A stretch of 21,343 nucleotides of DNA from a virus. Position numbers and translations under genes: made by a program. Under the pieces are notes generated by a model. It was not told the DNA's origin and searched no databases. It saw only the letters and a list, made by a program, of their open reading frames with translations. Shown here piece by piece: positions 4,007 through 21,343 of the stretch. Location: positions 1 through 21,343 of IMG/VR virus record IMGVR_UViG_3300022752_000451, one strand, 5' to 3'. Position 1 is the stretch's first letter; every line of letters begins with the position of its first letter.

Positions 4007-4558
4007 TTATCCTTGGAACCACTCTTGAGTACCAAGCTTGTTGTCTGTGTACACAAATCGATTGGTAGAATATACCATGTTGTTTTTAACAAGCCTATCG
4101 TTTTCCGACATGAGATACATCCAAGCTTCAACAATCTCAGAGCCGTTATACACCGACACAAGCCGTCGAGTATACATGCTGCCGTTACCTTCCAGCAGGT
4201 CTAGACGCTTCATCGTTGCAGAATCAACCTCATACAACTCACCCATGATTGCAAACGCATCATCAACGGCAACAGTCACCGCAGGAAAAGAACCAAGCAA
4301 AGGATGCATCCGAAAGTTACGATATACCGTTTCGGTAATACCGAAAAACTTGGAACCTTCCAAAAGCTTGTGATTACCAAAACCACGCTTGAGAGAGCCA
4401 TACACGAAAACCATGTACTTCTGGGGAAACATGGCCTCGATTTGATCGTCGCTCATGCTGCACATTTCATCCATAGCCTCTTGCTTGCGCTGGTCACACC
4501 ACGCAACATAATCAGGATCGGATGCAAGCTCTTGCATGAAAATGTCTTCGTCGTTCAT
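4007..4558 (-). CDS. Gamma-glutamylcyclotransferase-like (AIG2/GGCT fold) protein
   Basis: A 183-residue protein. After an N-terminal helical, acidic extension (residues 1-47), residues 48-180 show the GGCT/AIG2-like pattern: FVYGSLKRG (51-59, the YGSL substrate loop), NH.LL, a GELYEVD strand (106-112), LDLLEGNGSMYTRR (119-132) with Glu123 in the place of the family's catalytic glutamate, and VEAWMYLM near the end. Family members release 5-oxoproline from gamma-glutamyl amino acids or from gamma-glutamylamine crosslinks; the substrate here cannot be read. Phages carry such genes sporadically and their benefit is unknown. Start 4558 (MNDEDIF) is chosen over a GTG at 4582, which would overlap the candidate promoter. 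No ribosome binding site is visible, so the mRNA may be leaderless. Confidence 0.8.
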   Translation of the reverse strand: MNDEDIFMQELASDPDYVAWCDQRKQEAMDEMCSMSDDQIEAMFPQKYMVFVYGSLKRGFGNHKLLEGSKFFGITETVYRNFRMHPLLGSFPAVTVAVDDAFAIMGELYEVDSATMKRLDLLEGNGSMYTRRLVSVYNGSEIVEAWMYLMSENDRLVKNNMVYSTNRFVYTDNKLGTQEWFQG

Positions 4559-4564
4559 GGTAAC

Positions 4565-4593
4565 ATAATACCATACAACCACGATATTCTAAA
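4565..4593 (-). promoter_or_regulatory. Possible promoter before the GGCT-like gene
   Basis: On the minus strand TTTAGA (4593-4588), 17 bases, then TATTAT (4570-4565). The -10 matches 5 of 6 and the -35 4 of 6. The predicted start falls at or next to the ATG at 4558, implying a leaderless message, consistent with the missing ribosome binding site. The region is AT-rich, so chance matches are likely. Confidence 0.3.
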
Positions 4594-4653: not shown

Positions 4654-5595
4654 TCAGTCTGCTAGCAAGTTTTTGCCAGCCCGACCAAGTTTTTCTACCT
4701 TGGCAGCTTCAACCTCGGTGGCACTACCAAGATCGATGCTGGCTACAGTTTTGTGGTTGTCATCACCATTCTTCATAATGAACGTTGCATCCATTAGAGC
4801 AGTGACGTAATCAGCATATTCTGGATTGTTTAGAATACGGCTTCCAAACTCGCTCTTGTAGAACTTTTCGTCCACAATAATCTCCCCAGTTTTAACGTCG
4901 TTTACTTGAAAGTATTTCCATTGTGATGTACCCTCTAGTTTGATCTTCTTACCTTCAAAGATAACAGGATCTTTGCATTTCTCACAATACTCACGAAGTT
5001 CATCGAAAACGTTTTCGTCCTCTCTCACTCCCTTACCAAAGTGAATCTCAAACGATACTTCTCTCCAAGGTCTTGCAACCTTGTTCTTAATGGTCTTACA
5101 AGTTACATTGATACCAATAACAGCTTCCTTGCCGTTGATGCTTTGTTTGATTTGTTGACCACCTGTAAGCTTGATACGAGTAGATGCATGATATGGAATT
5201 GCCATACCACCGGGAGTTGTGTTATGGTTAATTTGCCCTTCTGCCAGATAAGTTTCTGTATCTTCAACCATCATATCAACGACGGCCATAGGTTCTTCAA
5301 TAAGGACAGCTTCTGGATGGTTTTGTAGTTCAACCCACTCTCCATTCAAAAGAACACGGTGAACTGATGTACCTTTCAGAGAACCAAGCTTGTAGTGTTT
5401 TTGAACGCTTGGTTTTACAACTAAAGCACTAATAGGTTTCCATACCTTTTGTTGTGTTTTTTCATCCCAGCTTTCAACTTCATATTCATCTGAGCTGGTA
5501 TCAATTTCTAGTGGTGTATCAAACCTATCCACGCCAAACCGATTAAACAACTCTGCAAATGTAAGTTCTTCTATTTGATTTTTATTTGTGTCCAT
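4654..5595 (-). CDS. uvsX: UvsX/RecA-like recombinase, C-terminal part fused behind a split-intein C-fragment
   Basis: A 313-residue protein in two parts. Residues 1-125 are the C-fragment of a split intein, ending INHN; residues 126-313 (188 aa) are the missing end of the recombinase. The extein starts TTPGGMAIPYHASTRIKL, which continues RecA's L2 loop and following strand (E. coli TTTGGNALKFYASVRL), and includes KTIKNKVARPW, matching RecA's VVKNKIAAPF. The end is charged and acidic. On its own this protein lacks both Walker motifs and cannot be an ATPase, so it makes sense only after trans-splicing to the product of the gene at 6689-7936, giving a recombinase of 420 residues. GAGG lies 9 bases before the ATG, which overlaps the end of the endonuclease gene by 14 bases. 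The symbol reflects the T4-like context; recA would be equally defensible. Confidence 0.9.
   Translation of the reverse strand: MDTNKNQIEELTFAELFNRFGVDRFDTPLEIDTSSDEYEVESWDEKTQQKVWKPISALVVKPSVQKHYKLGSLKGTSVHRVLLNGEWVELQNHPEAVLIEEPMAVVDMMVEDTETYLAEGQINHNTTPGGMAIPYHASTRIKLTGGQQIKQSINGKEAVIGINVTCKTIKNKVARPWREVSFEIHFGKGVREDENVFDELREYCEKCKDPVIFEGKKIKLEGTSQWKYFQVNDVKTGEIIVDEKFYKSEFGSRILNNPEYADYVTALMDATFIMKNGDDNHKTVASIDLGSATEVEAAKVEKLGRAGKNLLAD
5221..5595 (-). other. C-fragment (Int-C, 125 aa) of an atypically split intein
   Basis: Residues 1-125 of the gene at 4654-5595. They contain nearly the whole intein fold: a start equivalent to the segment after strand 1, VWKPISALVVKPS (51-63), which lines up with VVWKPVLRVVRKPS of the neighbouring cis intein, block B GSLKGTSVHR (71-80) with the TxxH pair T76/H79, block F VVDMMVEDTETYLAEG (105-120), and block G ending His124-Asn125 followed by +1 Thr. 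Only block A is absent; it is supplied by the 15-residue Int-N at 6692-6736. The expected chemistry is Cys1 attack, Thr+1 transesterification and Asn125 cyclisation. Confidence 0.9.
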
Positions 5596-6625
5596 TTAAT
5601 ATTTCCTCTATTCTTTCTTTGACTATAGATTTATTACCAAGTATATCCGTTTCCCAAAAAGAGTGAACTTCATACCCTTGTTTGGTAAGATTAGCAACTC
5701 TATTTTCATCTTTCAACCATATAACGGAAGCTGGTACGTTTTCGTAAAGAATCTTATCGGCAGCATATAAACGGGGATTCCCATGCCAAAAATCTCCATA
5801 ACACTCAAAAATGAGGTTATATTTTGGAATCAAAAAATCAGGATATACGTATCCTTCATCAATTGGTATAGTAGGCTCATATACAAATTCAATATCTAAA
5901 TCCAATAGTAGTAAGCCAAATTCATATTCAATCTTGTTGACATCGTAGTTTTGTAATCTGTAATTTCTTGCAAATCTACCTTTATACCAAGCTGTTAATT
6001 TTTCCTCGTCGCAGGACATTCTTGCTTGTTCCCACATTTTTTTCGAGCTTTTTGAGATTTTTTCTTTTCTTTCTGGGTTGTTGGCCGCAAATATCAACTT
6101 TTCTCTGCCGCCTTCATTGATCCATTTTTTGTACTTCTCAACTCTTTTTTGTTTTACTTCGGGAGTTTGCGCTGCCGTAACTGCTTTTTTCTTATTGTCT
6201 GGATTACTGAACCATTCCTTTTTTAACCTAGACTGTAATTCGTGATTACTAGCCTTGCGAAGTTTTTCACGGTATTCTGGTTTCGCCATTGCAACTGCAT
6301 GGTTTTGTTTCATTTTTGCTTTTACAGAAATGAAATAAGACTCAACTGTGGATTGAAAAGCTTCATCTAACAATCCTTTTTTTAACGCATAAGCAAACGC
6401 ATATTCTTTGTTGAAGAACTGCTTCACAAAGTTGTAGACAAGAACGCCTGTCTCCTCACCAAGAAAATAAGTAAAATATTCCATCTTGGAAGGAGACAGT
6501 GGCATACCATTAATACTTTTTGGATAAATTTTACTTTCGGTAAAAAGTTTTTTCAACTTTACAGTATATTTCGGAATACACTCATCAATCCAGAATTTTA
6601 AATCGATATAATCTTCAGGCTTCAT
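5582..6625 (-). CDS. Free-standing Vsr-like (EDxHD-type) homing endonuclease
   Basis: A 347-residue protein lying between the two halves of the recombinase gene. The C-terminal third has the Vsr/PD-(D/E)xK-like nuclease signature: Glu235 in KIEYEFG, YPDF (261-264), the block FECYGDFWHGNP (273-284) with the ExxxDxWH pattern, and a closing GYEVHSFWETDI (317-328). This matches the family described for fractured split-intein genes and for I-Bth0305I. Residues about 115-200 carry four short basic repeats beginning KPE, NPD, TPE and NPE, each with Lys-rich helices, similar to NUMOD3-type DNA-binding modules. Residues 1-110 are not recognised. The likely role is to cut intein-free uvsX alleles so that the locus is copied in. 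A strong AGGAGGGG precedes the ATG by 5-6 bases but lies in a hairpin (6626-6688). Confidence 0.88.
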   Translation of the reverse strand: MKPEDYIDLKFWIDECIPKYTVKLKKLFTESKIYPKSINGMPLSPSKMEYFTYFLGEETGVLVYNFVKQFFNKEYAFAYALKKGLLDEAFQSTVESYFISVKAKMKQNHAVAMAKPEYREKLRKASNHELQSRLKKEWFSNPDNKKKAVTAAQTPEVKQKRVEKYKKWINEGGREKLIFAANNPERKEKISKSSKKMWEQARMSCDEEKLTAWYKGRFARNYRLQNYDVNKIEYEFGLLLLDLDIEFVYEPTIPIDEGYVYPDFLIPKYNLIFECYGDFWHGNPRLYAADKILYENVPASVIWLKDENRVANLTKQGYEVHSFWETDILGNKSIVKERIEEILNGHK

Positions 6626-6688
6626 TTTTTCCCCTCCTAAGCTTGTCGTTGGATCTATGATCTAACTATGACGCTAGGAGGGGAAAAA
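6626..6688 (-). promoter_or_regulatory. Hairpin burying the endonuclease ribosome binding site
   Basis: The gap between the uvsX 5' gene and the endonuclease ATG is nearly all one inverted repeat. A perfect 14-bp outer stem pairs TTTTTCCCCTCCTA (6626-6639, plus strand) with TAGGAGGGGAAAAA (6675-6688). Inside are a 4-pair partial stem (6643-6646 with 6668-6671, two of them G-T) and an 8-bp stem (6648-6655 with 6659-6666, one G-T) closed by a 3-base loop. The outer stem covers the AGGAGGGG just before the ATG at 6625. After the stem comes A-rich rather than T-rich sequence, so it is not a terminator. It should hold down endonuclease translation unless a transcript starts inside it or ribosomes open it. 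Confidence 0.8.
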
Positions 6689-7936
6689 TCAAACATTTCG
6701 TCGTCTTACTTTGATTTTTGTGTCGGGGGAAACACAAGAAGGATCTCCGTACATTGTGTTGTGTGAGAGAATCCCGTTACTGAGATAAGAGTGCTCGCCT
6801 TCAACCTCAATGTCAGCAATTTCGATATCCTCCAAAGAGCTCTTAATTTGGAATGTCTCCCAGCCTCCGATAGTTTTTATAAGAAGAGGATGTTTTTTGA
6901 CTGTTTTATAAATATCTTTGGCTTCTGCATAATACATTTCGCTTGGAAAATCAACACTTCGAACAAAAACTTTATGGTCTGGTGAGCAATCAAGTGAGAA
7001 GCCAGAATGTGTGGTGATGTTTATTCTGGGGGCGCTTGGTTTTCTTACAACCCGCAAGACTGGTTTCCAAACAACGTCAGAAAAATCGTTATGATCGGCT
7101 ATCAATGTCTTCACCTCCCAACCAGATATATCAACCGGCTTTCCGATGACCATATTGTTAAAATAGATTCCTATTTCTTTAAAAAATGAACGCATGGTGC
7201 CAACACGTTCTTGATTTGTACCAACCGGACGGTAAGATATCTTTGTTTCTGGGCTCACACACCCGATCTTAACTCTTTGCTGATTTAAAAGAACCAAACA
7301 AACGTTTTTATCACCGATTACATCTGTGATTTTACGGAAGCCTTTAGAAAGCACTCTAGCAGCTAGACCAATCGTGTTCTGGTCATAATCACCTTCAATC
7401 TCTGCCTTGGGAGCAGACGCAGCAACAGAGTCCCAAATAACCGTTACCGGTACATCAGCCTTGAGATTGCGAGCCTTTTCAATAGTTGATTCAATAACCT
7501 TGAAAATGTCTTCAATACAGGTTTCTTGAATAAACACGAAACGCTTGCGAATATCGATACCAAGACCTTCAAGGTTTTCTACAGAGGTAGCGTTCTCGGT
7601 ATCAATATAAACAACAATACCATTCATCTTTTGAGTTGACTTAGCAATCTCATAAGCGATGTGAGATTTACCAGAGCTCGGTGGGCCTTGGATTTCTACA
7701 ATACGCCCTTCTGCTACACCACCATTGCGACGGTTAGAGATAATGTAGTCAAGTTGTTTGGAACCTGTAGAAATCCAACGTTTAACTGTTGTTGGAGCTT
7801 CGTCGGTACCAAGGTTAAAAGCGATTTTGTTACCAGCTTCTTTGTTGATTTGCTTGATTAGTTCAGCAGAAAAGTCTGTGTCCTCGTTTGCTGCTGGTTC
7901 GTCTAATAGAGGCTTTTTGTTTGATTTGATTGCCAT
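6689..7936 (-). CDS. uvsX: UvsX/RecA-like recombinase, N-terminal ATPase part with two intein pieces
   Basis: A 415-residue precursor. Residues 1-225 are the recombinase ATPase core: Walker A GPPSSGKS (84-91), the catalytic-Glu region around IDTENA (111-116), Walker B VTVIWDS (164-170), and LLNQQRVKIG (216-225), the RecA L2-loop start with the nucleotide-sensing Gln219. Residues 226-393 are a complete mini-intein, 394-400 (TMYGDPS) a short extein piece matching RecA VMFGNPE, and 401-415 a 15-residue intein N-fragment, followed by TGA. It forms the recombination filament only after cis-splicing and trans-splicing with the product of 4654-5595. The start at 7936 (MAIKSNKK) has AAGGAG 11 bases upstream; an in-frame start at 7990 would fall inside the -35 box. 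It has its own promoter and follows the SSB terminator. Confidence 0.93.
   Translation of the reverse strand: MAIKSNKKPLLDEPAANEDTDFSAELIKQINKEAGNKIAFNLGTDEAPTTVKRWISTGSKQLDYIISNRRNGGVAEGRIVEIQGPPSSGKSHIAYEIAKSTQKMNGIVVYIDTENATSVENLEGLGIDIRKRFVFIQETCIEDIFKVIESTIEKARNLKADVPVTVIWDSVAASAPKAEIEGDYDQNTIGLAARVLSKGFRKITDVIGDKNVCLVLLNQQRVKIGCVSPETKISYRPVGTNQERVGTMRSFFKEIGIYFNNMVIGKPVDISGWEVKTLIADHNDFSDVVWKPVLRVVRKPSAPRINITTHSGFSLDCSPDHKVFVRSVDFPSEMYYAEAKDIYKTVKKHPLLIKTIGGWETFQIKSSLEDIEIADIEVEGEHSYLSNGILSHNTMYGDPSCVSPDTKIKVRRRNV
6692..6736 (-). other. N-fragment (Int-N, 15 aa) of the split intein
   Basis: The last 15 residues of the 5' recombinase gene, CVSPDTKIKVRRRNV, followed directly by TGA. It holds only block A, with the nucleophilic Cys1. 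The partner Int-C (5221-5595) supplies everything else, giving a total intein of about 140 residues. Known atypically split inteins have N-fragments of roughly 15-25 residues (for example the AceL-TerL and VidaL types), so the length fits a known but rare class. The RRR stretch is basic, while the Int-C start is acidic (QIEELTFAEL, EIDTSSDEYEVE), consistent with charge-driven association. Confidence 0.88.
6737..6757 (-). other. Seven-residue extein between two inteins
   Basis: Codes TMYGDPS, which matches VMFGNPE in the RecA L2 DNA-binding loop. It is bounded on the left by the Asn168 end of intein 1 (SHN) and on the right by Cys1 of the split intein. Its Thr is the +1 nucleophile for intein 1 and its Ser the -1 residue for the split intein. 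Confidence 0.88.
6758..7261 (-). other. Complete cis-splicing mini-intein (168 aa)
   Basis: Residues 226-393 of the 5' recombinase gene. It starts with block A CVSPETKISY (Cys1). Block B is GFSLDCSPDHKVFV (intein residues 87-100), with Ser93-x2-His96 in place of the usual TxxH. Block F is IADIEVEGEHSYLSNG (148-163), and block G ends SHN (166-168) with +1 Thr. No LAGLIDADG, HNH or other nuclease insert is present, so it cannot home by itself. It is inserted after RVKIG of the L2 region. Its length of 168 is typical for an endonuclease-free intein. Confidence 0.92.
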
Positions 7937-7961
7937 GTATGTTTGCTCTCCTTCTTCAAAC

Positions 7962-7990
7962 AACATAACACAGCAACACTCAAAAGTCAA
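7962..7990 (-). promoter_or_regulatory. Sigma70-like promoter for uvsX
   Basis: On the minus strand TTGACT (7990-7985) and TATGTT (7967-7962) are spaced by 17 bases, matching consensus at 5 of 6 and 4 of 6. The predicted start is near 7955, leaving a leader of about 19 bases that contains AAGGAG (7953-7948). Its place just after the SSB terminator supports a separate uvsX transcript that would continue through the hairpin into the endonuclease and the C-terminal gene. Confidence 0.65.
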
Positions 7991-10818: not shown

Positions 10819-13800
10819 TTATCTGCGTGGTGTATGTGAGCGGTGGTGTCGTTGTTGTGTAGGAGTTGCGGGAGCTTGTGGTTGGCCTTGAGGGATAGCT
10901 GCGATTGTTTGCGCAGCTGTGTCGAGTTGGCTTATAAGGTTTCTGTAACGACCAAATGCATCAACTGCTGTGAACTTAATGGTTGTTTCAAAGCTTCCTG
11001 CTTCGATTTTATGTTGCAAACCAGTGATGTAATACATGTTGTCAATAGAAGTGTTGGTATTGTAATCGACAAATATTTCTTGACCGTATCGTAGGATTGG
11101 ACAACCTAAACTTGTCATGTTTAGTTCAACAGGATAAACGCTTAATGGAACACCGCCCGGTTGTTGACCGTTGGGCTGAACTGGCGAAGCGTTAAGCGAA
11201 CGTTGAATGTTGATTGTGTTTAATGCAGGGTCGCTTTGAGAGCCAAGAGTTGCAGTTTTGATTGTTGTGGCCATGGCTCCATAGATGATATGAGGCATAC
11301 CTTTCATGATATATTCTTTGAGTTGTTGTGGCCCACCAGAGAACCTATATTGACCTGAAGCTTCAGATTGTTGTCCTTCGGCAGAGTTTATAGGAGCAAT
11401 CAAACCAAGTCGTCGCACATCTTCCACAACAGCATTATGTAGCTGTCTCCAGTTTTGTCGCAACTCATTTCGTACATTTGTTCTTTGTTCTTCAGTGCGT
11501 GCGTTTGCGTTTTGAACCGCTAAATCTTCATTTGCTGTTCTTTGCGCAGGATCGCCGGGATAAGCACTTAAAGTACCAAGAACGTTTTCTGTTGCAAGAT
11601 TTAGCAACTCACGATATGGATTGTTTGGTGAACATGCTTTATCAAACACATGGATCTTGAGAACGGTTTGACTGTTGCCGGTTGTTGCATCAGCTTCAGT
11701 TGAAGGTGTTGCTTCTATCTCAAATGTAACTTGCGGAGGCACAAAATCGGGATGCTCACCGATGTTTTGTGTACGCATTCTTGTTTCCATGTCTCTTTCA
11801 AAGCTTCGTTCGTTTTTTGCTTCAACTTGTTGCTCTTCGTTAATTTTATATAAATCTGCTATGCCGTAAGCTGGATTTATTACATCGTCCACGATTCTTG
11901 AAGCCACGAAGCTCAAAAACTCATTAACACTTAAGTTTACAGTTCTGCTTACACTTTCCATACGCATTCTTCCGTATTCACGGGTGAAATAATCTGTTTG
12001 CACAGGAAACTGCGAAATGTTGCAATAACTCATCCAACTTGCCTTGTTGTTAAAGTTGTAAAAGTACATTTGCACTTCTTTAAACTTTGGTGTGTTATCT
12101 GAGTTTTTTAGCGCAGCCAAAGGTTTGGCAACAAAAGCTGTTAACAACGTTCCAAGAGAAACAACTTTGGCCCCGCTAAATGGTGGTAAACGTTGACCTG
12201 CTGGCAAAGCACTTGCACTATTATTGCCTGTTGATGGAAGTTGTTGTCTTGGAGTTGCTTCTCTGTTTTGGGTAGGCTGTGGTCGATCACGAGCTAAACT
12301 GTCTTTGATATTATTCCAAACAGGCATAGTTCTCAAAAACGAATCATTGTAAAAACGATCTTTGTTTGTTTTGTCCGGGCCATTGTTGAGACTGTTTAGT
12401 ATGGTTCGTATTTCCAAGTTAAGTGTTTGAGATACAGCAGTTAGTCTACTACGTTCGCCGGGAGCAGTGCTGTTTTCATTAACAGAACCTACAAGATTTT
12501 GAATAGCAGTCTTAAGTTGTTCTGCTGCTGGGCGCAAAGCGTCTGTTTTAGCTCGTTCATCCAAGGTTGCACTTAAACGACTTAGTTCTCGGATAACATC
12601 TCTTGACAATATCAAGTTGTTAGTGGCGTCACCGGCAGCACTCAAACCTTGAATGCCACGGATTTCTCTTCTGTGCGTAGAGCTGTCAGAGGATTGCGCT
12701 TGGTTCGGAAAAACTATTCCACTCAATCTGTTAATGGTTTCAGACAAACGTTCGATTTGTCTTATTTGAGTTTGAATACGGCTAGCGGCAGTTTCTCCAA
12801 CAATCGAAAGTTCAGTACTTTCAGCGGTGCCTCTACCAATCAAGTTCAAAGTAATGTATACTTGGCCAACTTCATCAAAGTTAAAGTTGCTTGTGACGAT
12901 AGTAAAGTGCTCAACAGAACGTGTTAGATTTAAAAGATCAGCATATGGATTTTGATCTCTTGCAAGATCTGGATGCAACCATCCATATTCTACTTCAAGA
13001 AACGTTTCACCGAATCTATCTGGTTTAACAAAGTCAGCAAACTCTGACATACGTGAGCGATCATGCAAAACTATTTCTAATGTTGCTGTACGTGTTCCTT
13101 GCAAACCATATGCACTCTTAACGTCAACGCTAAATGATTTAATCGAAGCTAATGGACGAAAAGGATCAATGATTGGTGCCAAATAGTTGTTGACTTGTTT
13201 ATAACCTTCAATGTTTTGCAACGACTGAGGCATTCGAAACAACTCAAGTCCTGTCACTGTATAAGTGTTAAAATCAACAACAGACGTTCTGTTGCCATTA
13301 ACAGAGCCTGTTGGGATTTGATTTGATTTTGCAAAGGCGTGCAAAGCTACATTGCTTTGTGTTTGTTCCCCTATGTCTCTTGCACCTTCAACAAACTTTT
13401 GCAACGTAATAGCACTTAGTTTGTTATCTACAAGTGTTTGCCTTGTGGAAAAAAACTTAACGTTCAAAACAGGTGTTGCTCTTGTTAACTCTAAAGTTGG
13501 AATGCCATTAAAAAACACGGATAATAGTTCAGCATTCTTTTCTCCCGGCATAAGCAACGGGTGATCCATGCGTACAACAGCAATACGTCGTTTTATATCA
13601 GAAACAAATTCTTGACTAACATTTTCTGTATCAAGGATAGGAACAGCAAAATCTAAATCTTTTAAGCAAATCTGGTTTTGCTCTAAAACAGAGTTGTCTT
13701 GTGCCGCTTCACAATAATGAATCTTGATGCAACGACTAATGTTAGCGATTTGTCGTTGCTGATCGGCTGTTGGAGTTTTTGTTACCAAATCATTTAAGCT

Positions 13801-14205
13801 TTTTCTTATTGCCTCTTTGTCATTTGTTAATATGGTTTTGGCAACAGTACTATCACCTTCCATCAGTATTTCAAATATAGGAACAAGTGCAGGATCAGCC
13901 CTTACATTTAAATCTCCTATAGCTGCTTGAACATCTGCGGCGTTTGTTGGTGTTCGACCATTTCTTGTTGAAGTAGTATCTGGCGTTGTACGGCTTCGAC
14001 CACCGGGAGGTGGTGGTGGGCGGCGGTCAGCTTGGCCTATCGCTTGCTGCAAAGAAAGAGCTGTTGCTATGTCTCTGCTGTTGATAAAGCCATAATATCT
14101 ACGAAAAAACGTTTTTAGTTGAGTTAGTCGGGCATTCTTTTGAGCACGAAGAGCAGACGGATTAAGAATCAAGTTTTCTGTATCAAGGTATAGCATGTTT
14201 TTCAC
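10819..14205 (-). CDS. Large baseplate-hub-like protein
   Basis: A 1128-residue protein. The C-terminal region (about 1025-1090: SLGCPILRYGQEIFVDY, MYYITGLQHKIEAGSFETTIKFTAVDAFGRY) has the pattern of gp27/gpD-type hub domains, in which a strand pair ending H.i..G.f.T.i.F precedes a short Tyr-containing tail. Residues 350-460 (SIKSFSVDVKSAYG, TATLEIVLHD, FLEVEYGWLHPD, VYITLNLIGRG) form another beta-rich, hub-like module. Pro/Gly/Arg-rich linkers occur at 61-90 and 640-675, and helical, Gln/Asn-rich sequence at 470-610. The end is His/Arg/Pro-rich. The protein is several times longer than T4 gp27 (391 aa), so it may combine hub and wedge functions. Start GTG at 14205 or ATG at 14196; neither has a clear ribosome binding site. 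Confidence 0.6.
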   Translation of the reverse strand: MKNMLYLDTENLILNPSALRAQKNARLTQLKTFFRRYYGFINSRDIATALSLQQAIGQADRRPPPPPGGRSRTTPDTTSTRNGRTPTNAADVQAAIGDLNVRADPALVPIFEILMEGDSTVAKTILTNDKEAIRKSLNDLVTKTPTADQQRQIANISRCIKIHYCEAAQDNSVLEQNQICLKDLDFAVPILDTENVSQEFVSDIKRRIAVVRMDHPLLMPGEKNAELLSVFFNGIPTLELTRATPVLNVKFFSTRQTLVDNKLSAITLQKFVEGARDIGEQTQSNVALHAFAKSNQIPTGSVNGNRTSVVDFNTYTVTGLELFRMPQSLQNIEGYKQVNNYLAPIIDPFRPLASIKSFSVDVKSAYGLQGTRTATLEIVLHDRSRMSEFADFVKPDRFGETFLEVEYGWLHPDLARDQNPYADLLNLTRSVEHFTIVTSNFNFDEVGQVYITLNLIGRGTAESTELSIVGETAASRIQTQIRQIERLSETINRLSGIVFPNQAQSSDSSTHRREIRGIQGLSAAGDATNNLILSRDVIRELSRLSATLDERAKTDALRPAAEQLKTAIQNLVGSVNENSTAPGERSRLTAVSQTLNLEIRTILNSLNNGPDKTNKDRFYNDSFLRTMPVWNNIKDSLARDRPQPTQNREATPRQQLPSTGNNSASALPAGQRLPPFSGAKVVSLGTLLTAFVAKPLAALKNSDNTPKFKEVQMYFYNFNNKASWMSYCNISQFPVQTDYFTREYGRMRMESVSRTVNLSVNEFLSFVASRIVDDVINPAYGIADLYKINEEQQVEAKNERSFERDMETRMRTQNIGEHPDFVPPQVTFEIEATPSTEADATTGNSQTVLKIHVFDKACSPNNPYRELLNLATENVLGTLSAYPGDPAQRTANEDLAVQNANARTEEQRTNVRNELRQNWRQLHNAVVEDVRRLGLIAPINSAEGQQSEASGQYRFSGGPQQLKEYIMKGMPHIIYGAMATTIKTATLGSQSDPALNTINIQRSLNASPVQPNGQQPGGVPLSVYPVELNMTSLGCPILRYGQEIFVDYNTNTSIDNMYYITGLQHKIEAGSFETTIKFTAVDAFGRYRNLISQLDTAAQTIAAIPQGQPQAPATPTQQRHHRSHTPRR

Positions 14206-14226: not shown

Positions 14227-14520
14227 TCAGCCTAAGAACTGAAGTGCTTGCTGTAGGTCTGGAATCACGATTCTTGTGTTTGGAGGCACCTGTAAACTCC
14301 AGCCAATGTTACTTGCGGCTGCAATGAGCCAATAGTATTTGCCATCACCGTAATATTGACCGGCCAACACATCAAGACGTATAACCTCTTTCAAAAATAT
14401 CACGTTGACCGCAATTTGACCGTTCGCTATAGCTGAACGAATGTTAGCAACTGTTTCGCTTGTGCCATACTGAAAGTTAAAGTTTAGTTTTGGTGTTAAA
14501 ACGTATCTACTTGTTGCCAT
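14227..14520 (-). CDS. LysM/gpX-like tail protein
   Basis: A 97-residue protein. Residues 48-90 contain RLDVLAGQYYGDGKYYWLIAAAS and VPPNTRIVIP, the pattern of the LysM-like domain in P2 gpX-type tail proteins, where a short repeat follows D.la...yGd..ywW.Ia.aN and ends with a P.g..l.iP strand. T4 gp53 has a related segment. Such proteins join the tail tube or hub to the baseplate wedges. It lies between two very large tail genes, separated by 7 and 21 bases, which supports a baseplate role. AAGGA lies about 11 bases before the ATG. Confidence 0.7.
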   Translation of the reverse strand: MATSRYVLTPKLNFNFQYGTSETVANIRSAIANGQIAVNVIFLKEVIRLDVLAGQYYGDGKYYWLIAAASNIGWSLQVPPNTRIVIPDLQQALQFLG

Positions 14521-14527
14521 AACTCAC

Positions 14528-17500
14528 TCAATCCTTGCGATCATAATACAAAGGTATACTCTTATCAACTGAAAAATAATCGTTTGCGTCTATTGTGCCA
14601 ACGTCACCCTGCGGGCCGGGGGTGGGTGATGGTGAGGTTGGCAGTGCGTTTGTTGATTGATCTGATCCAGCTATACCGTTGTTAACAAAGTAGTTTGAAG
14701 TATTTCCAACGGGCCAGATTGGTGCCATCATGATGCCGTTTGCATCAAGACCCGGAGTAATGTCGTGAATCACAGCCATTTGTAGCTGTACAGTGACAAA
14801 CATAGGTGCTCTTAAGAGATTGCTAGCATCGATGCCCCAGTTACCCTTAGCTTCGCTATAATCCACCTTAAAGCTTGTTATAACCCCAGCAAGACCTTTA
14901 CCTCCAGAAGAGTTAAAAGCTTTCATTATAGGGTTTTGTGTTGGACTATAAAAATCCGATGGGGTTAGTAGCGGCGCAGCTTGCGATGGAGTAGGTGGGG
15001 GTGCAGCTGCTGCGTCTTCGCTGGCTGCTTGTTGGTAGTACAGTTGAATAGTTGAACGCTTATCCCATATTTCGCTTCTAAAATGCTCGATTTTTATTTC
15101 AACTTCGGGAGCGGGCGCATTGTTTCTGCCAGTAATCGTACTTCCCCCGGTTTGTAACGTTTGAATATTTACAGTTTGGTTTTCTGTCACTCCAACTGTA
15201 ACATCATCGATGAATTTTTCTGGTTTGACATATACGCTGCCGAGGTGCCGCCCGGTGCCATTCCTTGTAACTTTTGCAATGATTCTACTGTTGTTGTTTC
15301 CGCTAATAGCTTGTCCGCCGATTTTAAAATGTCCTAAGTTTGGAAAATGTCTAACGTTGAAAACTAATGTATCGGCTGGGGTGAATACTTCGCTTGCAGC
15401 AACCGTAGGCACGTTGCTAACTGGCTGACGCCTACGATGCCGTGATCTGCTCGCTACTGCACTGGTGCCATCGTTGGGAGCTGCGCCAATAGTACGCTCA
15501 AGCATTTTATTCGCTCTGTTTCTCCTAGCTTGGCCGGGAGTTGGTTGCGTAGGTTGCGCTGGGTTGGCAGGCGCTGTTGAAGCCACAGGTGGTGGTGTGT
15601 ACCTTGCGTCTACATTATAATCTGTTAACGTTGTTGCTCCAAACAATCTTGCAACAGCCATCTTACTATAGTTGGTTTTGTATAGATCTCCAAGACGCAA
15701 ACGTATTACAGGTGTTGCGCCGGGAATTTGAGAAAATGGTTGAATAAACTTGATGTTATCAACAGTAACTTTTCTGCCTTGTGTCCATTGTGGATAAATC
15801 ATCATAGCAAGACGATTTACCTTGTACCACATAATGTCATGGTCTTCTGGATTCATTGCAACCATTTTAAAGTTCACAGAAACGTTTCTTGTTGTGCCTT
15901 TATAAATCTGAACTTTATCCATGCGGCCATAACCGTCTTGAGCAGAATATTCAACGCTGAAATCTTCGCTGGCTTCTTCAAGAAACGCATGAAACGAAAG
16001 GATTTCGTTTGTTCTCAAATCGTGAATGTAAAAAGGCATGAAATCTGCTTCTAAGATCGATTCAGTGTATTTAACAACTTCGGGATCTAATCTTCCAGAC
16101 TTTACAGCCGAAGCTCCTTCTGGCTCCGTTAACGTTGTGATTTGGGAGTTTTCGTAGTTTAATGGAGCACCAACCTGCATGTTCATTTCATCCCAGTGAG
16201 ATGAAAAACCATTGGCATATTTGCCTATACCAACGTTACTAAAAGAAGATAAAGAACCATGTAAAGGCAAACCCAACATACCGGCTGTTTTGTTACTCCA
16301 TGCCAAACCAGTTTGATTGCTCAATCGAGACTTGGAAATGTAGTTAGGACGAATGTCTGGTAAACTATCAACGTATGATGTATTGCTTCCTGTTACTGAC
16401 AATGAGCTATTGATGGTGCCAGCATTGATGTTTGCCGCAGCTTTTGCTCTTATATCAAACTCAAACTTAACTTTGTCGCCCATTCCCATCAAAACATTGA
16501 TAAAACGAACGATTTTCAAGTCACGGATTTTACGTATCAAGTTACCAATGCCGGTGACCGAAGCTAAACCTGTTAAGTCTAGAGCTGTATCTTCAACCAA
16601 ACTAATACCACTTCTTAAGATCTCACGAAGAATAACGTTTAATCTACCGCTTTCGGTAAGAACTCTTAAAGAAGTATTTGCAAGCTGCTGTCCGGCTGTA
16701 ATGCCAGTTCCTTCATTTCCTGATGTTGTACCAAAGCCAGAAAAACTAAAACCAAAAAACTCTTGAATGCCAGCGTTTAAACATTCTTCGGTTCTGTGAC
16801 GGGTGTAAGAGAATATGCCGTTGGTACCAAGAAACTGAGAAGCGATATCTCCAATATCTACTTGACTTAATGGATAAACACCAGAGTTTTGCAAAACAGA
16901 AGCACCAAGCAAACGTTTCTTTTCGTTGTTTCCCAAGTCTGCAAAAGAAGATGCTCGTCCTTGCGCATCGGCATCACCTATTAAGTTGAATGCATTGATT
17001 AATGCTGTAAGGCCGCTCAACAACAAAACATAAGCTAAAATCATTGCAACGCACAAAGCGATTTGACCTAAAGATATCAAACTATCAAACTGAGAATATA
17101 CGTTGTATTGGTTACCATATGATTGTACGTCATCGGTGTTGTCGATAAAGTTTGAGTTGTTTGGTTTTTCTGCCCCAGTAAGCTTTTTGATTTGAAATGC
17201 TGGAGTGAATCTACCAAGACTTACACGCTTTCCGATTCTTTGCTCGGACGGAATGGCCATTCTAGCTTGGGCTTCAGCAATATCACCAGCATCGTTGGAA
17301 CGTATAGTAAAATCCAAGCCAGCACGACCTTGCACAGCTTCAAACATAATGTTTAAGCCAATGTTTTTCATTTGCTCGATTGTCATTGGCGGTGCGGACG
17401 TTGCTGTATCTGGTTGGCTGCGAACGTAACTTCCCGATACGTAGTTAACTCCATTGCTCAAATTGCTAGCGTTCTTGTAAAAGTAAGAACCAAGCGTTAT

Positions 17501-18103
17501 TCTGTTGTCGTTTTTGTTTTGAGTTGCATCTGGGGTAACAAATTGGTTGTTTGGTTCAGAGTTGTGACCTCTAGAGCTCAACAAAATTCTGTTAATGTTT
17601 GCTTCGTGAAGCTTTGCATTTTCTTGATTGATATCTTTTTGGTATACGTTTATTGAAAAATTGCGCAAACCTGTGCCATTGTCTGCTTTATAGTGTACGC
17701 CCAACATATCAGGTGTGCTTATTATTGGATCGTTGGTATATGAGGGAGTTGGAACAGAGTTAAATTCTACTTTGGCATTCGCAATTTTATCGATATAATT
17801 TGGTTGAGTTGTATTGATAGGAATATCATTAACTTGAGAACGATTAACAACATATTCTGTAAATTGATTAAGAACTGGTTGAGCTATATCGATTTCATCA
17901 TCTATTGTTGGAGCAACAGGAGCATCGCCTTTGTTTTGATAATAGATCGTTAAACGACGAGAAAGCACCGGTATTGGAGATGGAGCAAGCGGTGCTTGCT
18001 CTGCATTTGTTTGTGGGCCGGGACGTTGTATTATGTTTCCTGTTGATTGCTCGGGAACAGGAGCAGACAACAACTCTGAGGGTGGTGGAACAATAGGCGG
18101 CAT
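14528..18103 (-). CDS. Large tail/baseplate structural protein
   Basis: A 1191-residue protein. The N-terminus is Pro-rich (1-45) and residues 180-340 are Asn/Ser-rich. A strongly hydrophobic stretch at about 342-375 (LISLGQIALCVAMILAYVLL) is long enough to cross a membrane. Residues 685-830 (ADFMPFYIHDLRTNEILSFHAFL, then VSVNFKMVAMN, VNRLAMMIYPQWTQG) and 1070-1115 (GVITSFKVDYSEAKGNWGID, RAPMFVTVQLQMAVIHDITPG) look like the beta-rich tail-tube or LysM-linker folds of myovirus tube-initiator and baseplate proteins. The two blocks are joined by Pro/Ala/Arg linkers (834-900, 1028-1048). AAGG precedes the ATG by about 7 bases. Position next to the LysM-like and hub-like genes supports a tail role; the exact counterpart is not identified. 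Confidence 0.6.
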   Translation of the reverse strand: MPPIVPPPSELLSAPVPEQSTGNIIQRPGPQTNAEQAPLAPSPIPVLSRRLTIYYQNKGDAPVAPTIDDEIDIAQPVLNQFTEYVVNRSQVNDIPINTTQPNYIDKIANAKVEFNSVPTPSYTNDPIISTPDMLGVHYKADNGTGLRNFSINVYQKDINQENAKLHEANINRILLSSRGHNSEPNNQFVTPDATQNKNDNRITLGSYFYKNASNLSNGVNYVSGSYVRSQPDTATSAPPMTIEQMKNIGLNIMFEAVQGRAGLDFTIRSNDAGDIAEAQARMAIPSEQRIGKRVSLGRFTPAFQIKKLTGAEKPNNSNFIDNTDDVQSYGNQYNVYSQFDSLISLGQIALCVAMILAYVLLLSGLTALINAFNLIGDADAQGRASSFADLGNNEKKRLLGASVLQNSGVYPLSQVDIGDIASQFLGTNGIFSYTRHRTEECLNAGIQEFFGFSFSGFGTTSGNEGTGITAGQQLANTSLRVLTESGRLNVILREILRSGISLVEDTALDLTGLASVTGIGNLIRKIRDLKIVRFINVLMGMGDKVKFEFDIRAKAAANINAGTINSSLSVTGSNTSYVDSLPDIRPNYISKSRLSNQTGLAWSNKTAGMLGLPLHGSLSSFSNVGIGKYANGFSSHWDEMNMQVGAPLNYENSQITTLTEPEGASAVKSGRLDPEVVKYTESILEADFMPFYIHDLRTNEILSFHAFLEEASEDFSVEYSAQDGYGRMDKVQIYKGTTRNVSVNFKMVAMNPEDHDIMWYKVNRLAMMIYPQWTQGRKVTVDNIKFIQPFSQIPGATPVIRLRLGDLYKTNYSKMAVARLFGATTLTDYNVDARYTPPPVASTAPANPAQPTQPTPGQARRNRANKMLERTIGAAPNDGTSAVASRSRHRRRQPVSNVPTVAASEVFTPADTLVFNVRHFPNLGHFKIGGQAISGNNNSRIIAKVTRNGTGRHLGSVYVKPEKFIDDVTVGVTENQTVNIQTLQTGGSTITGRNNAPAPEVEIKIEHFRSEIWDKRSTIQLYYQQAASEDAAAAPPPTPSQAAPLLTPSDFYSPTQNPIMKAFNSSGGKGLAGVITSFKVDYSEAKGNWGIDASNLLRAPMFVTVQLQMAVIHDITPGLDANGIMMAPIWPVGNTSNYFVNNGIAGSDQSTNALPTSPSPTPGPQGDVGTIDANDYFSVDKSIPLYYDRKD

Positions 18104-18122: not shown

Positions 18123-18320
18123 CTATTTAGAACCTTGTTTTTTGGCTATTTCTTCGTATGCTTGCGAAAGACCGTTAAACTTACCTTGAAGCTGATCAAG
18201 CATTCCATGGATAGCCGTAACAGTTTTTTGTCTTTCATTCGCATCTTCAATTTGTTCCAAAAGACTTTTGATTATTTGATTTGACAACACTTGTTCACGA
18301 AGTTCTTTGTTTGATAGCAT
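18123..18320 (-). CDS. Small helical coiled-coil protein in the tail operon
   Basis: A 65-residue, all-helical, charged protein (SLLEQIEDANERQKTVTAIH, then LDQLQGKFNGLSQAYEEIAK), probably a coiled coil. Its ATG (18320) lies one base after the TGA of the tape-measure-like gene, and AGGA is about 10 bases upstream, so it is clearly made together with it. Small helical proteins at this place in tail operons are often assembly chaperones or minor virion parts; which applies here cannot be told. No family was recognised. Confidence 0.65.
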   Translation of the reverse strand: MLSNKELREQVLSNQIIKSLLEQIEDANERQKTVTAIHGMLDQLQGKFNGLSQAYEEIAKKQGSK

Positions 18321-18321
18321 A

Positions 18322-21300
18322 TCAGTTATATCCTGTGTAATTTGGGTTGAAAGCTGTTGTATTGAAAGCTTTTTGATTTGCCGCAGTTTCGGTCCTATAA
18401 GTTGTATCTCGTAGCGAAGCAGCGATTTCTCTGCTGTCTATTGTAACGCTAACGTTGATTTGTGCTTTAACTGCTGCGTTTTGAACTGCTAGGGTTTGTC
18501 TTCCACCAAGAGTTGTACCAAGGTTAGTTAAAGCAACTCGTAATGGACCATCGCCACCAGAAAGGTTACGAAGCTCATTAACGAAATCGTTGTAAGCAGT
18601 AACCATACTTCTCATTGGTGCAATAGCTTGTTCTCTGATCATGGTTGTTATTGACGAGATTCTCACCCCAGACTGATCAGTGCCACTTCCGAAGTGTTCA
18701 GCCAATATCGGCAAAATAGCGTTGCTAGGGCCGAATATTCTATCGATGTTTTCACGAAGCCGTGCTCCGGCACTTGCATCAACCGCAGCGATGTTGCCTA
18801 TTCCTGATGCTGCGCTTGTCAATTCTTGCAAACTATCCCGAACAGAAGTCAACAACGCTCCTTTGCCACGAATGTTTTCTTTTACAACCGATACGTTTCT
18901 AAAAGCTTGTGGATTCATTAGTGGGTTAACGCCGCTACCACCACTTGTAAGACCCGATATAACCTTGTCCACATTCTGAAGAGGAATATCCAAAAATCTG
19001 GCTGCTATAGGGGTTTGAGCACCCGTAGCTACACTATTGATGGAAGCAGTTGCTTCAATAAGAGATTTAACAGCTTCGAAAACGGTTTTTATTGTTTGTG
19101 CTTTTCCAGCGATTCCTCTGGGTGGTGTGAACGCCGCAACAGCTTTCAAAGCATTTTCTGTTGTTTCGCCATAACCGGGGACATTTCCAATCCGAGATTT
19201 GCTAAACAAACCAATCAACAAGTTTAAAGGCGGATTGATTGTATCAAGCACACTACGAACAGAAGTTGTTGTGGTTCCTCCAGTACCAGTTGTTGTTACT
19301 TGCAAAGAACTGGTTATACCAGCAACAACACCAATCAAATCAAAAACGTTTTTTATTGCTTTGACTTTTGAATCTAAACCTTTCACGTTTACGGGCATTG
19401 TTTGCAACGAACTAATCATGTTAGGAATGATCGTTGTAAACATGTTGCTTATTGCAGTGCTTATTGAACTTATTGTTGTTGAGATTAAGTTTGTTCTTTC
19501 TCTGATTTGTGCTGGTGTCAGAGTTGCAGCAGAAACGCTTTGTGAAGCAGTTTGGATAGCGTTCATGATTGGTGGAATGATTCTACCAATCACTTCCATG
19601 ATTGAAGCTATAGCTTGAATGCCTTTGATTTTGTTTTCATCAACAGTCATTGTTGCGATAGTATCAATTATTCCTTTTATACCTTTGTTCTCTGGATGTG
19701 CTGGGTCACCGTTGATTAGTTGTTGTACTTGTTTTGTTATGCTGCTCAAGTAGGTGCCCAACGCACTCATATCAACCTTTTCATCGGTGAACGTTCCGTC
19801 TACGTCTCTGAACGCTCTGATTTGATCTGGTGATAGCGTAAATACTTTCGCTAGCTCTGTAACACTTTTAAGGATGTTACCAATAGCTTCAGCACCTTTG
19901 AGTTTTTCTGGTGTTATTGCACTGTTACTTATAAGCGTACCAATGCTGGAAATCACAGAAGTTAACATTCTGCTCATAGAACCAACGATGTTCGTTATCA
20001 GAATCTGTATGTCAAGCAAAACTGAACTAATCTGGCCTTCAGTGTCAAGTTCATCAACCAAACCTGTGACCGCTCTGATCATTTCTGGTAAGGTCTTTGT
20101 TAAATCAACAATCGCTGGTACAAATGCTCCCAACAACACGGCACCTGCTTTAACCGCTTCTGTTTGAGCAGGACTTAGATTTTTAAAGCTTTCTGTGATT
20201 GTGGGAACAATACCTTGTTCTCCAAATATGGTTTTTAAAAATTCCTCCAAAGGTTGTTTGATTTTCATGAAGTTGTTTTGCGAAGAACCAAGGTCGCCAC
20301 CCAATAATGCACCAACCACACTACTTGTTCCAGTAGTTTCAGAAACAAAGTTAGCCAACGGACGCAACAGTCCAACTATTCCTTGTGCTATTGTTGTAAA
20401 AACTCCGGCCTTGGCTTTAAGTGTTTCTGGGTCGCCTTGAATGTTCGCAATAGAGGTTATGAGAGTTGTTGCCATTTCTTTAACTGTGGTAAGCAAACTT
20501 TCTATCTTGCTTGGGGCGCTTGACCAAACGCTGAAATCGATACCGATTATCGCACCAAGAACGCTTCTACCACTAGCTCCCATTAGCTCTGCGACCGCAC
20601 CGGCAATGTTTTTGATCAAGTCACTGATCGCTCCTATGATTGCGGACAAGGCTTTGGCTTTGTTTTCGTCAATGTTGATGGTAGACATGTCTCTTATTAT
20701 TTTTTCTGACATTTTTGCCAGAGCATACACAAACACCCCAGTTGCAACGATTCCTAATACTGCAAGTGGAGCTTTGGTTGCAATAATAAAAGCTATCCCT
20801 GCTAGTAGAGCAGTCAACACTCCTACCTTTGCAAACATATCAACCATTGAATCCATTATTGAGAAAGTTTTTTCTGCATCACTTTCTTTTATCGAACCTA
20901 GATGACCAATAGTTCGGATTGCGGTTTTTGTAACTCCATCAATAACTTCATCAACAGCAACAAGGCCAGCCAACGCAACACCAAAAGTAGCTATAACTGC
21001 CGCTCCAACAACCGATAACTCAAGAACTAAAAGGCCGACAGCCATGAAAATAGCTGTCATTCCACCGATAGCAGCTAAAGTCACTAACACTTCATCTATT
21101 TTGAAATCTTTGAAAGTTTTAATAGCCGTATACGCCGCCATACCAATGACGACCAAGGCAGCAGCAGCTGCAACCATGCCGATCATAATCTGTTGGGAGT
21201 TTATTTGAACACCAGTGCCAACAACGGCAAGTGTCGCAAACAAAGCAGCCATTCCAGCAAACAAAACAGTAAATGCGGTCATGACCAATATAGTGACTGC

Positions 21301-21343
21301 AACTTCATCAATTGGGAACTTGCCTAAAACTGTGATTGCAAGA
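18322..21343 (-). CDS. Tape-measure-like tail protein, C-terminal part (5' end beyond window)
   Basis: The frame is open to the right edge (18 more codons before a TTG at 21288, reading LAITVLGKFPIDEVAVTI), so about 1006 residues are visible and the true start lies outside. The first 200 residues carry several hydrophobic segments, including two copies of an (F)xIDEV.VT block 71 residues apart followed by membrane-like stretches. The next 620 residues are about eight helical repeats of roughly 77-92 residues (see the repeat entry). The last 100 residues are less hydrophobic, with an INVSVTIDSREIAASL strand region and a soft NPNYTGYN end. Long helical proteins with membrane segments next to baseplate genes are typical tape measure proteins, which set tail length and enter the cell with the DNA. 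A large hub protein is the alternative. Confidence 0.7.
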   Translation of the reverse strand, partial: LAITVLGKFPIDEVAVTILVMTAFTVLFAGMAALFATLAVVGTGVQINSQQIMIGMVAAAAALVVIGMAAYTAIKTFKDFKIDEVLVTLAAIGGMTAIFMAVGLLVLELSVVGAAVIATFGVALAGLVAVDEVIDGVTKTAIRTIGHLGSIKESDAEKTFSIMDSMVDMFAKVGVLTALLAGIAFIIATKAPLAVLGIVATGVFVYALAKMSEKIIRDMSTINIDENKAKALSAIIGAISDLIKNIAGAVAELMGASGRSVLGAIIGIDFSVWSSAPSKIESLLTTVKEMATTLITSIANIQGDPETLKAKAGVFTTIAQGIVGLLRPLANFVSETTGTSSVVGALLGGDLGSSQNNFMKIKQPLEEFLKTIFGEQGIVPTITESFKNLSPAQTEAVKAGAVLLGAFVPAIVDLTKTLPEMIRAVTGLVDELDTEGQISSVLLDIQILITNIVGSMSRMLTSVISSIGTLISNSAITPEKLKGAEAIGNILKSVTELAKVFTLSPDQIRAFRDVDGTFTDEKVDMSALGTYLSSITKQVQQLINGDPAHPENKGIKGIIDTIATMTVDENKIKGIQAIASIMEVIGRIIPPIMNAIQTASQSVSAATLTPAQIRERTNLISTTISSISTAISNMFTTIIPNMISSLQTMPVNVKGLDSKVKAIKNVFDLIGVVAGITSSLQVTTTGTGGTTTTSVRSVLDTINPPLNLLIGLFSKSRIGNVPGYGETTENALKAVAAFTPPRGIAGKAQTIKTVFEAVKSLIEATASINSVATGAQTPIAARFLDIPLQNVDKVISGLTSGGSGVNPLMNPQAFRNVSVVKENIRGKGALLTSVRDSLQELTSAASGIGNIAAVDASAGARLRENIDRIFGPSNAILPILAEHFGSGTDQSGVRISSITTMIREQAIAPMRSMVTAYNDFVNELRNLSGGDGPLRVALTNLGTTLGGRQTLAVQNAAVKAQINVSVTIDSREIAASLRDTTYRTETAANQKAFNTTAFNPNYTGYN
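18799..20670 (-). repeat. Tandem ~85-residue helical repeats in the tape-measure-like protein
   Basis: Eight diverged units begin with a Lys-Ala helix motif: NKAKALSAIIGAISDL, LKAKAGVFTTIAQGIV, TEAVKAGAVLLGAFV, KLKGAEAIGNILKSV, NKIKGIQAIASIMEV, SKVKAIKNVFDLIGV, GKAQTIKTVFEAVKS and RGKGALLTSVRDSL. Counted from the TTG at 21288 they start near residues 208, 289, 375, 461, 551, 639, 727 and 806, a spacing of about 77-92. A second shared element (RSVLGAIIG...KIESLL and SSVVGALLG...KIKQPL) occurs between the first units. This is a protein-level repeat; the DNA copies are diverged. Confidence 0.65.

Follow-up and report, generated by a model that had tools for sequence, protein, structure and literature searches.

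Repeat units and an apparently exchanged membrane-type cassette in the putative tape-measure protein of a large contractile-tailed phage

Phage host range is usually ascribed to tail fibres, and the tape-measure protein (TMP) of phage HK97 reportedly acts together with a host permease at the inner membrane. In phage lambda, the TMP gpH works with the host permease ManYZ at the inner membrane, being labelled by TurboID-ManZ during injection, and one TMP mutation makes ManYZ dispensable (PMC13190303). In the lactococcal siphophage TP901-1, TMP deletions, including those in the hydrophobic region, shorten the tail linearly, and the protein has hydrophobic regions and, separate from them, proposed repeats of 11 or 18 residues (PMC5099701). 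Basilisk-like phages also have hydrophobic TMP regions and, according to those who described them, tail lengths that did not track TMP gene size (PMC6145125). That TMPs are diverse in populations is already published, since TMP genes are among those most often hit by metagenomic islands in honeybee phages (PMC13331135) and four TMPs were found under positive selection in soil viromes (PMC10746233). The protein described here is ordinary in kind, a tape measure, but unusual in design, with membrane-type and helical repeat units following one another in one register.

The window, by which we mean the whole stretch of DNA analysed, is 21,343 bases long and constitutes one entire IMG/VR record. 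The gene under study lies at its edge and comprises the following parts:

18322..21342, minus strand: 3' part of the probable TMP gene (open frame, relatives of 1667-2094 aa, synteny)
20674..21312, minus strand: three membrane-type repeat units of 71 residues each, residues 11-223 (mutual matches, hydropathy)
18625..20673, minus strand: eight helical repeat units of 81-89 residues, residues 224-906 (heads, spacing, self-alignment)
18325..18624, minus strand: C-terminal domain after the array, residues 907-1006 (predicted strands, from a low-confidence model)

The open reading frame has 1006 codons plus a stop, lacks a supported start, and runs into the contig edge; the earlier note, made from the window alone, had its coordinates right, with the frame open at the 5' end. 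Relatives indicate some 854 further residues upstream, and the window is accordingly judged to hold the last 1006 of about 1,860 TMP residues. What that note called the hydrophobic N-terminal part thus sits mid-protein. Relatives were found among viral contigs, giving eleven TMP contigs including the window, and seven of these carry a full-length gene:

L015 (contig shared with L002): 1860 residues
L016 (the same as L003): 1885 residues
L018: 1886 residues
L019, on a 260-kb contig: 1841 residues, class B
L014: 1840 residues, class B
L028, on a 241-kb contig: 1667 residues
L029: 2094 residues

The partial TMPs are those of the window, L017, L004 and L027. Class A comprises the window, L015, L016, L017 and L018, and class B comprises L014 and L019. 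A tblastn search of 50,697 phage records returned no match for the window protein or for L002, and a scan of genome contigs gave 590 pattern matches with no relative among them. Three of the eleven contigs stop near or inside the variable membrane stretch (in L015 numbering, the window at ~854, L027 at 831 and L004 near 1225), as expected where assemblies break on strain variation.

The array is read from eleven unit heads, at residues 11, 82, 153, 224, 306, 391, 478, 567, 656, 744 and 825, the first three of which are 71 residues apart, with spacings from 224 onwards of 82, 85, 87, 89, 89, 88 and 81. The repeats reported in the earlier note are hereby confirmed: its two IDEV-headed copies, 71 residues apart, are the units at 11 and 82, to which a third unit at 153 is added, and its eight Lys-Ala-headed units are those from 224 to 825, spaced by 81-89 residues. 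The periodic off-diagonals that it had expected of a dot plot are likewise present. In profile self-alignment, residues 1-772 of the window protein align on 72-852 with a score of 257, where 40 local column shuffles reach 28.9 at most; off-diagonals two units away score 112-119, and three-unit ones also appear. The same test gave 297 versus 35.4 for L015 and 75.5 versus 29.4 for the class-B protein L019 (20 shuffles each). Single sequences aligned to themselves scored 69.8 for the window protein against a maximum of 25.2 (15 shuffles), 167.9 against 29.1 for L029, 38.4 against 28.5 for L019, and merely 27.2 against 22.7 for L028. Units 1-3 align with one another along their full 71-residue length, the best E of each lying between 4.5e-14 and 2.7e-8, and units 4 and 5 match at E 5e-5; units 6-11 match other units weakly (best E 0.0014-0.024), the last one most weakly. 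An ungapped lag test found lags 71 and 142 significant in the membrane part (reached in none of 400 shuffles), but none in the helical part taken by itself (P 0.09), where units differ in length and so blur an ungapped lag. Beyond residue 740 it gave no significant lag in L016 (P 0.19), L019 (0.36) or L014 (0.18). At the DNA level no repeats are visible, nor were long ones found. Predicted structure suggests about two helices per unit (AlphaFold, mean pLDDT 43.5, used for secondary structure only), and the C-terminal domain, residues 907-1006, is 36-100% conserved across relatives. Membrane and helical units likely share descent, as suggested by their unbroken register and by a match of the unit 3 head to unit 4 (21.9 versus a shuffle maximum of 19.1, 40 shuffles), a link that leans mostly on the continuous register.

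Unit number is constant within class A, at 12 each in L015, L016 and L018, whereas L029 has 14, L019 and L014 have 11 each, and L028 has about 10; these counts come from chained self-alignments and are approximate, especially for L028, whose first two steps are 41 and 49. A position-specific unit-head score was discarded as a counting method, as it recognised mainly class-A units. The earlier note had supposed that tail length would change in fixed steps by gain or loss of units. Such gain or loss is seen among diverged relatives, whereas the closest relatives keep their unit number and change the sequence, so that most of the variation is of another kind than stepwise length change. The note's interpretation as a whole is partly supported, and its observation was mostly well read. 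By arithmetic from the TP901-1 figures, in which tails go from 118 to 65 nm for 347 residues, 0.15 nm per residue would give about 12-13 nm per 85-residue unit (PMC5099701), and the Basilisk-like tail lengths, as reported, counsel caution about any ruler reading (PMC6145125). Relatives with about 10, 11, 12 and 14 units offer a natural ruler test with a large step of about 85 residues.

What does vary between the closest relatives is one segment of the protein, which makes it more interesting than the earlier note had it:

20275..21343, minus strand: apparently exchanged segment, as far as it lies inside the window (no DNA similarity to L015; codon profile, protein matrix)

The window and L015 are 97.9% identical in DNA over 6.2 kb, but beyond window position 20274 the comparison shows no similarity up to the contig edge. 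L017 and L018 agree at 98.9% along the opening 2,378 bases of L017 and at 98.4% in its last 8,968 aligned columns, and between these flanks lie 1,008 bases with a single 83-base match. L015 and L016 are 89% identical on either side of 730 bases that differ in the same manner. The replacement thus measures about 0.7-1.0 kb, is in frame and nearly equal in length, and leaves unit number unchanged. Over L015 residues 896-1076, the five class-A proteins fall into three allele types that cut across two backbones: type 1 comprises the window and L017 (46% identical, both 181 residues), type 2 L016 and L018 (57%, both 186 residues), and type 3 L015 by itself (181 residues), with the other eight of the ten pairs at 22-33% identity. 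The flanks group differently, as (window, L015, L016) versus (L017, L018), with identities of 89-95% for L015/L016, 94-100% in the C-terminal part for window/L015, and 99-100% for L017/L018. Exchange of whole units was considered and rejected, since the left boundary lies at about 880-895 and the right one at 1138-1226, away from the unit heads. In a second, larger exchange, the class-B proteins share the N-terminal backbone (85-96% identity for residues 1-600) but have a different array between residues ~612 and 1780. The 1191-aa neighbour of the TMP also has unaligned patches in some pairs, such as L015/L016, so exchange reaches beyond the TMP.

Upstream of the TMP in L015, at a distance of ~1.2 kb, a GIY-YIG homing endonuclease gene occupies positions 5046-5789, where L015 shows no alignment to either L016 or L019; homing nucleases at the borders of phage exchange have been described (PMC10448857).

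These patterns suggest that the membrane segment is exchanged as a cassette, probably for inner-membrane partners or exclusion proteins. The same protein could, however, be a TMP whose membrane-like segment serves purely for assembly, through chaperone binding or tube packing, and varies by neutral drift and ordinary mosaicism. The TP901-1 authors were unable to demonstrate a role of the hydrophobic regions in membrane insertion and suggest chaperone binding (PMC5099701), and the patches in the neighbouring gene would fit mosaicism; yet neutral drift would not put 22-33% identity beside 99-100%, nothing but the cassette fails to align between L017 and L018 across some 12 kb at 98-99% identity, and allele types common to both backbones point to maintained variants, so that we hold this explanation to be unlikely. 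Assembly chimeras of co-occurring strains are a still poorer account of the cassette differences, and a quite improbable one: all contigs are metagenome assemblies, any single one of which could be chimeric, and three of the eleven break off close to or within the variable stretch, a place at which assemblies branch, but the three contrasts are independent, come from different samples, are in frame with the same unit number, and have allele-specific lengths of 181 or 186 residues, and branching assemblies themselves imply genuine variants in the samples.

Cassette exchange in a TMP presupposes that the protein is one, and its gene neighbourhood speaks to this:

18123..18320, minus strand: 65-aa ORF between the TMP and the hub-like gene (its counterpart in immuto is a small ORF of 74 aa)
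14528..18103, minus strand: putative baseplate hub-like protein, 1191 aa (profile matches the gene after the TMP in three phages)
14227..14520, minus strand: gp25-like baseplate wedge subunit (phrog_7145, E 6e-6)
10819..14205, minus strand: 1128-aa protein at the baseplate wedge gene position after gp25 (position, weak match)

In three other phages, immuto, Mel-JY01 and LR756508, the profile of the 1191-aa protein matches the gene that directly follows the TMP position (E 2.8e-8, 6.7e-8 and 1.1e-5); the protein has no family match in PHROG or Pfam; the gp25-like gene has matches in all three, and the 1128-aa protein matches weakly a 671-aa gene of Mel-JY01 (E 0.0017). The 65-aa ORF has no PHROG match, and Pfam matches solely below cut-off. 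In L015, the hub gene upstream of the TMP is recognised by PF12322 (E 2.8e-18) and also by phrog_150. The resulting order, PF12322/phrog_150 hub, TMP, small ORF, hub-like gene and gp25, is the same in immuto, Mel-JY01 and LR756508. In the Flavobacterium phage immuto, where the tail tape measure is annotated as such (QQO92151.1, 1006 aa) and the hub is PF12322-like, the genes run sheath, tail completion protein, hub, short ORF, tail tape measure, small ORF, and proteins of 716, 101 and 938 aa. The relative L004 matches two PHROG tape-measure families, phrog_305 (4e-7) and phrog_1535 (5.5e-6), whereas the window protein, L002 and L003 match no tape-measure family, the best PHROG match of the window protein being phrog_18362 at E 0.024, with nothing in Pfam. 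PDB profile searches gave unconvincing matches (E 0.015 or worse) or none, and no solved relative. AlphaFold models were poor (mean pLDDT 43.5 for the array and 44.9 for the N-terminal part); in a Foldseek search with the latter, 23 of the 26 named proteins among the 50 matches listed are tape-measure or minor tail proteins, at TM-scores of 0.2 or below and a best E of 3.5e-4. The protein appears mainly alpha-helical with hydrophobic segments, judging by hydropathy and the low-confidence model.

By gene order shared with an annotated TMP, the L004 matches and this hydrophobic, helical make-up, all of which uphold the earlier note's tape-measure reading, the window protein is almost certainly a TMP. 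It is very improbable that it is instead another repeat-bearing injected or baseplate protein, a notion to which its lack of a direct family match and the weak class-B matches to the internal virion protein family phrog_6056 (E about 1e-6) would lend themselves, given the gene order, the size and the L004 matches, and because the stretch from the hub gene to the 1191-aa hub-like gene offers no second long candidate. As to the phage, the sheath family PF04984 was above cut-off in one of three records searched, the 260-kb relative, the other two, both partial, having none; this sheath, together with the gp25-like gene in the window and PF12322 in L015, marks it by sequence as a large, contractile-tailed phage with a T4-type baseplate.

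Farther along the window, on the minus strand, UvsX looks fractured (4654-7990): an ORF at 6689-7990 covers RecA profile positions 6-201 and continues into a stretch resembling an intein (PF14890, below cut-off), one at 5582-6625 has a weak match to the nuclease-like DUF559, and one at 4654-5595 covers RecA profile positions 198-261. The locus resembles a split intein, with the halves flanking a free-standing endonuclease. A gamma-glutamyl cyclotransferase-like (GGACT) gene (4007-4582, minus strand, E 1.5e-23) adjoins the C-terminal half of UvsX.

Taken whole, the reading we favour with reasonable confidence is that of a contractile-phage TMP with a repeat ruler, whose membrane units are diversified and exchanged as a cassette. 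The membrane units of the window have five hydrophobic segments (Kyte-Doolittle 2.1-2.5) and L015 residues 765-1051 have eight (2.3-2.6); pore formation by such blocks during DNA entry, as the earlier note proposed, is plausible from hydropathy and from other TMPs. The complete protein would consist of a conserved head part (residues 1 to ~750), a chain of about 12 two-helix units, roughly four of them membrane-type (71 residues) and then eight helical (81-89), and a tail end of ~100 residues. Extended in the tail tube, the chain would set tail length, at about three rings of the tube per soluble unit. When the tail contracts, the chain would come out of the tube, and its membrane-type units would pass into the inner membrane and form or guide a DNA channel. 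There the segment would contact the host membrane and any exclusion proteins, and because of this its sequence would be diversified and exchanged: selection by host permeases or exclusion systems would fall on it, while a length constraint would fix its unit number. The cassette, in frame and of fixed unit number, would then be traded between co-circulating phages as the remaining protein stays nearly identical. Of all this, the repeats, the order of the genes, the hydropathy, the pattern of exchange and the numbers of units are observed, while the extended state in the tube, the length per unit, the entry into the membrane and the selective cause are inferred. A bolder proposal, which we offer tentatively and would sooner doubt than assert, is that the membrane units form a module for host specificity or for evading exclusion, a "second receptor" at the inner membrane, in which several ancient allele types recombine between backbones independently of tail fibres, at constant unit number and hence with tail length undisturbed.

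Two phages with 98-99% identity across about 12 kb differ there by a single swapped stretch, the membrane part of their ruler protein, and the swapped section may decide which bacterial membrane the phage injects its DNA through. If it does, predictions of host range from fibres only would be wrong for such phages, and TMP cassettes would be a readable marker.

Among known systems, immuto shares the gene order, and its TMP is alike in having internal repeats (offset 54, score 148 versus 29.4 in 15 shuffles) and several hydrophobic segments in its second half, but it does not match the TMP profile of the window group, and both its repeat and the protein are shorter. The TMPs of Mel-JY01 and LR756508 are also internally repeated, at offsets of 58 and about 42 residues; a single repeat length for all TMPs with the shared gene order was therefore rejected, and the period seems, from these sequences, to be re-set per lineage. 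T4 gp29 holds the same functional slot, near the hub and gp48 genes, but has 590 aa, one hydrophobic segment and no internal repeat clearly above shuffles (19.6 versus at most 18.6 in 10 shuffles). The membrane units here are natural candidates for a lambda-like contact with an inner-membrane partner. The TMPs of lambda and HK97, both siphophages, are known in this role via point mutations and binding, and from no exchanged membrane segment. In the parts of the open-licence literature covered, we found no TMP exchange localised to a membrane segment with alleles cutting across backbones. TP901-1 combines repeats and hydrophobic regions within one TMP as well, but the units here are of 71-89 residues and the membrane part continues their register. 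Repeats, membrane helices and diversity have each been described for TMPs, and the combination seen here is a variant on them.
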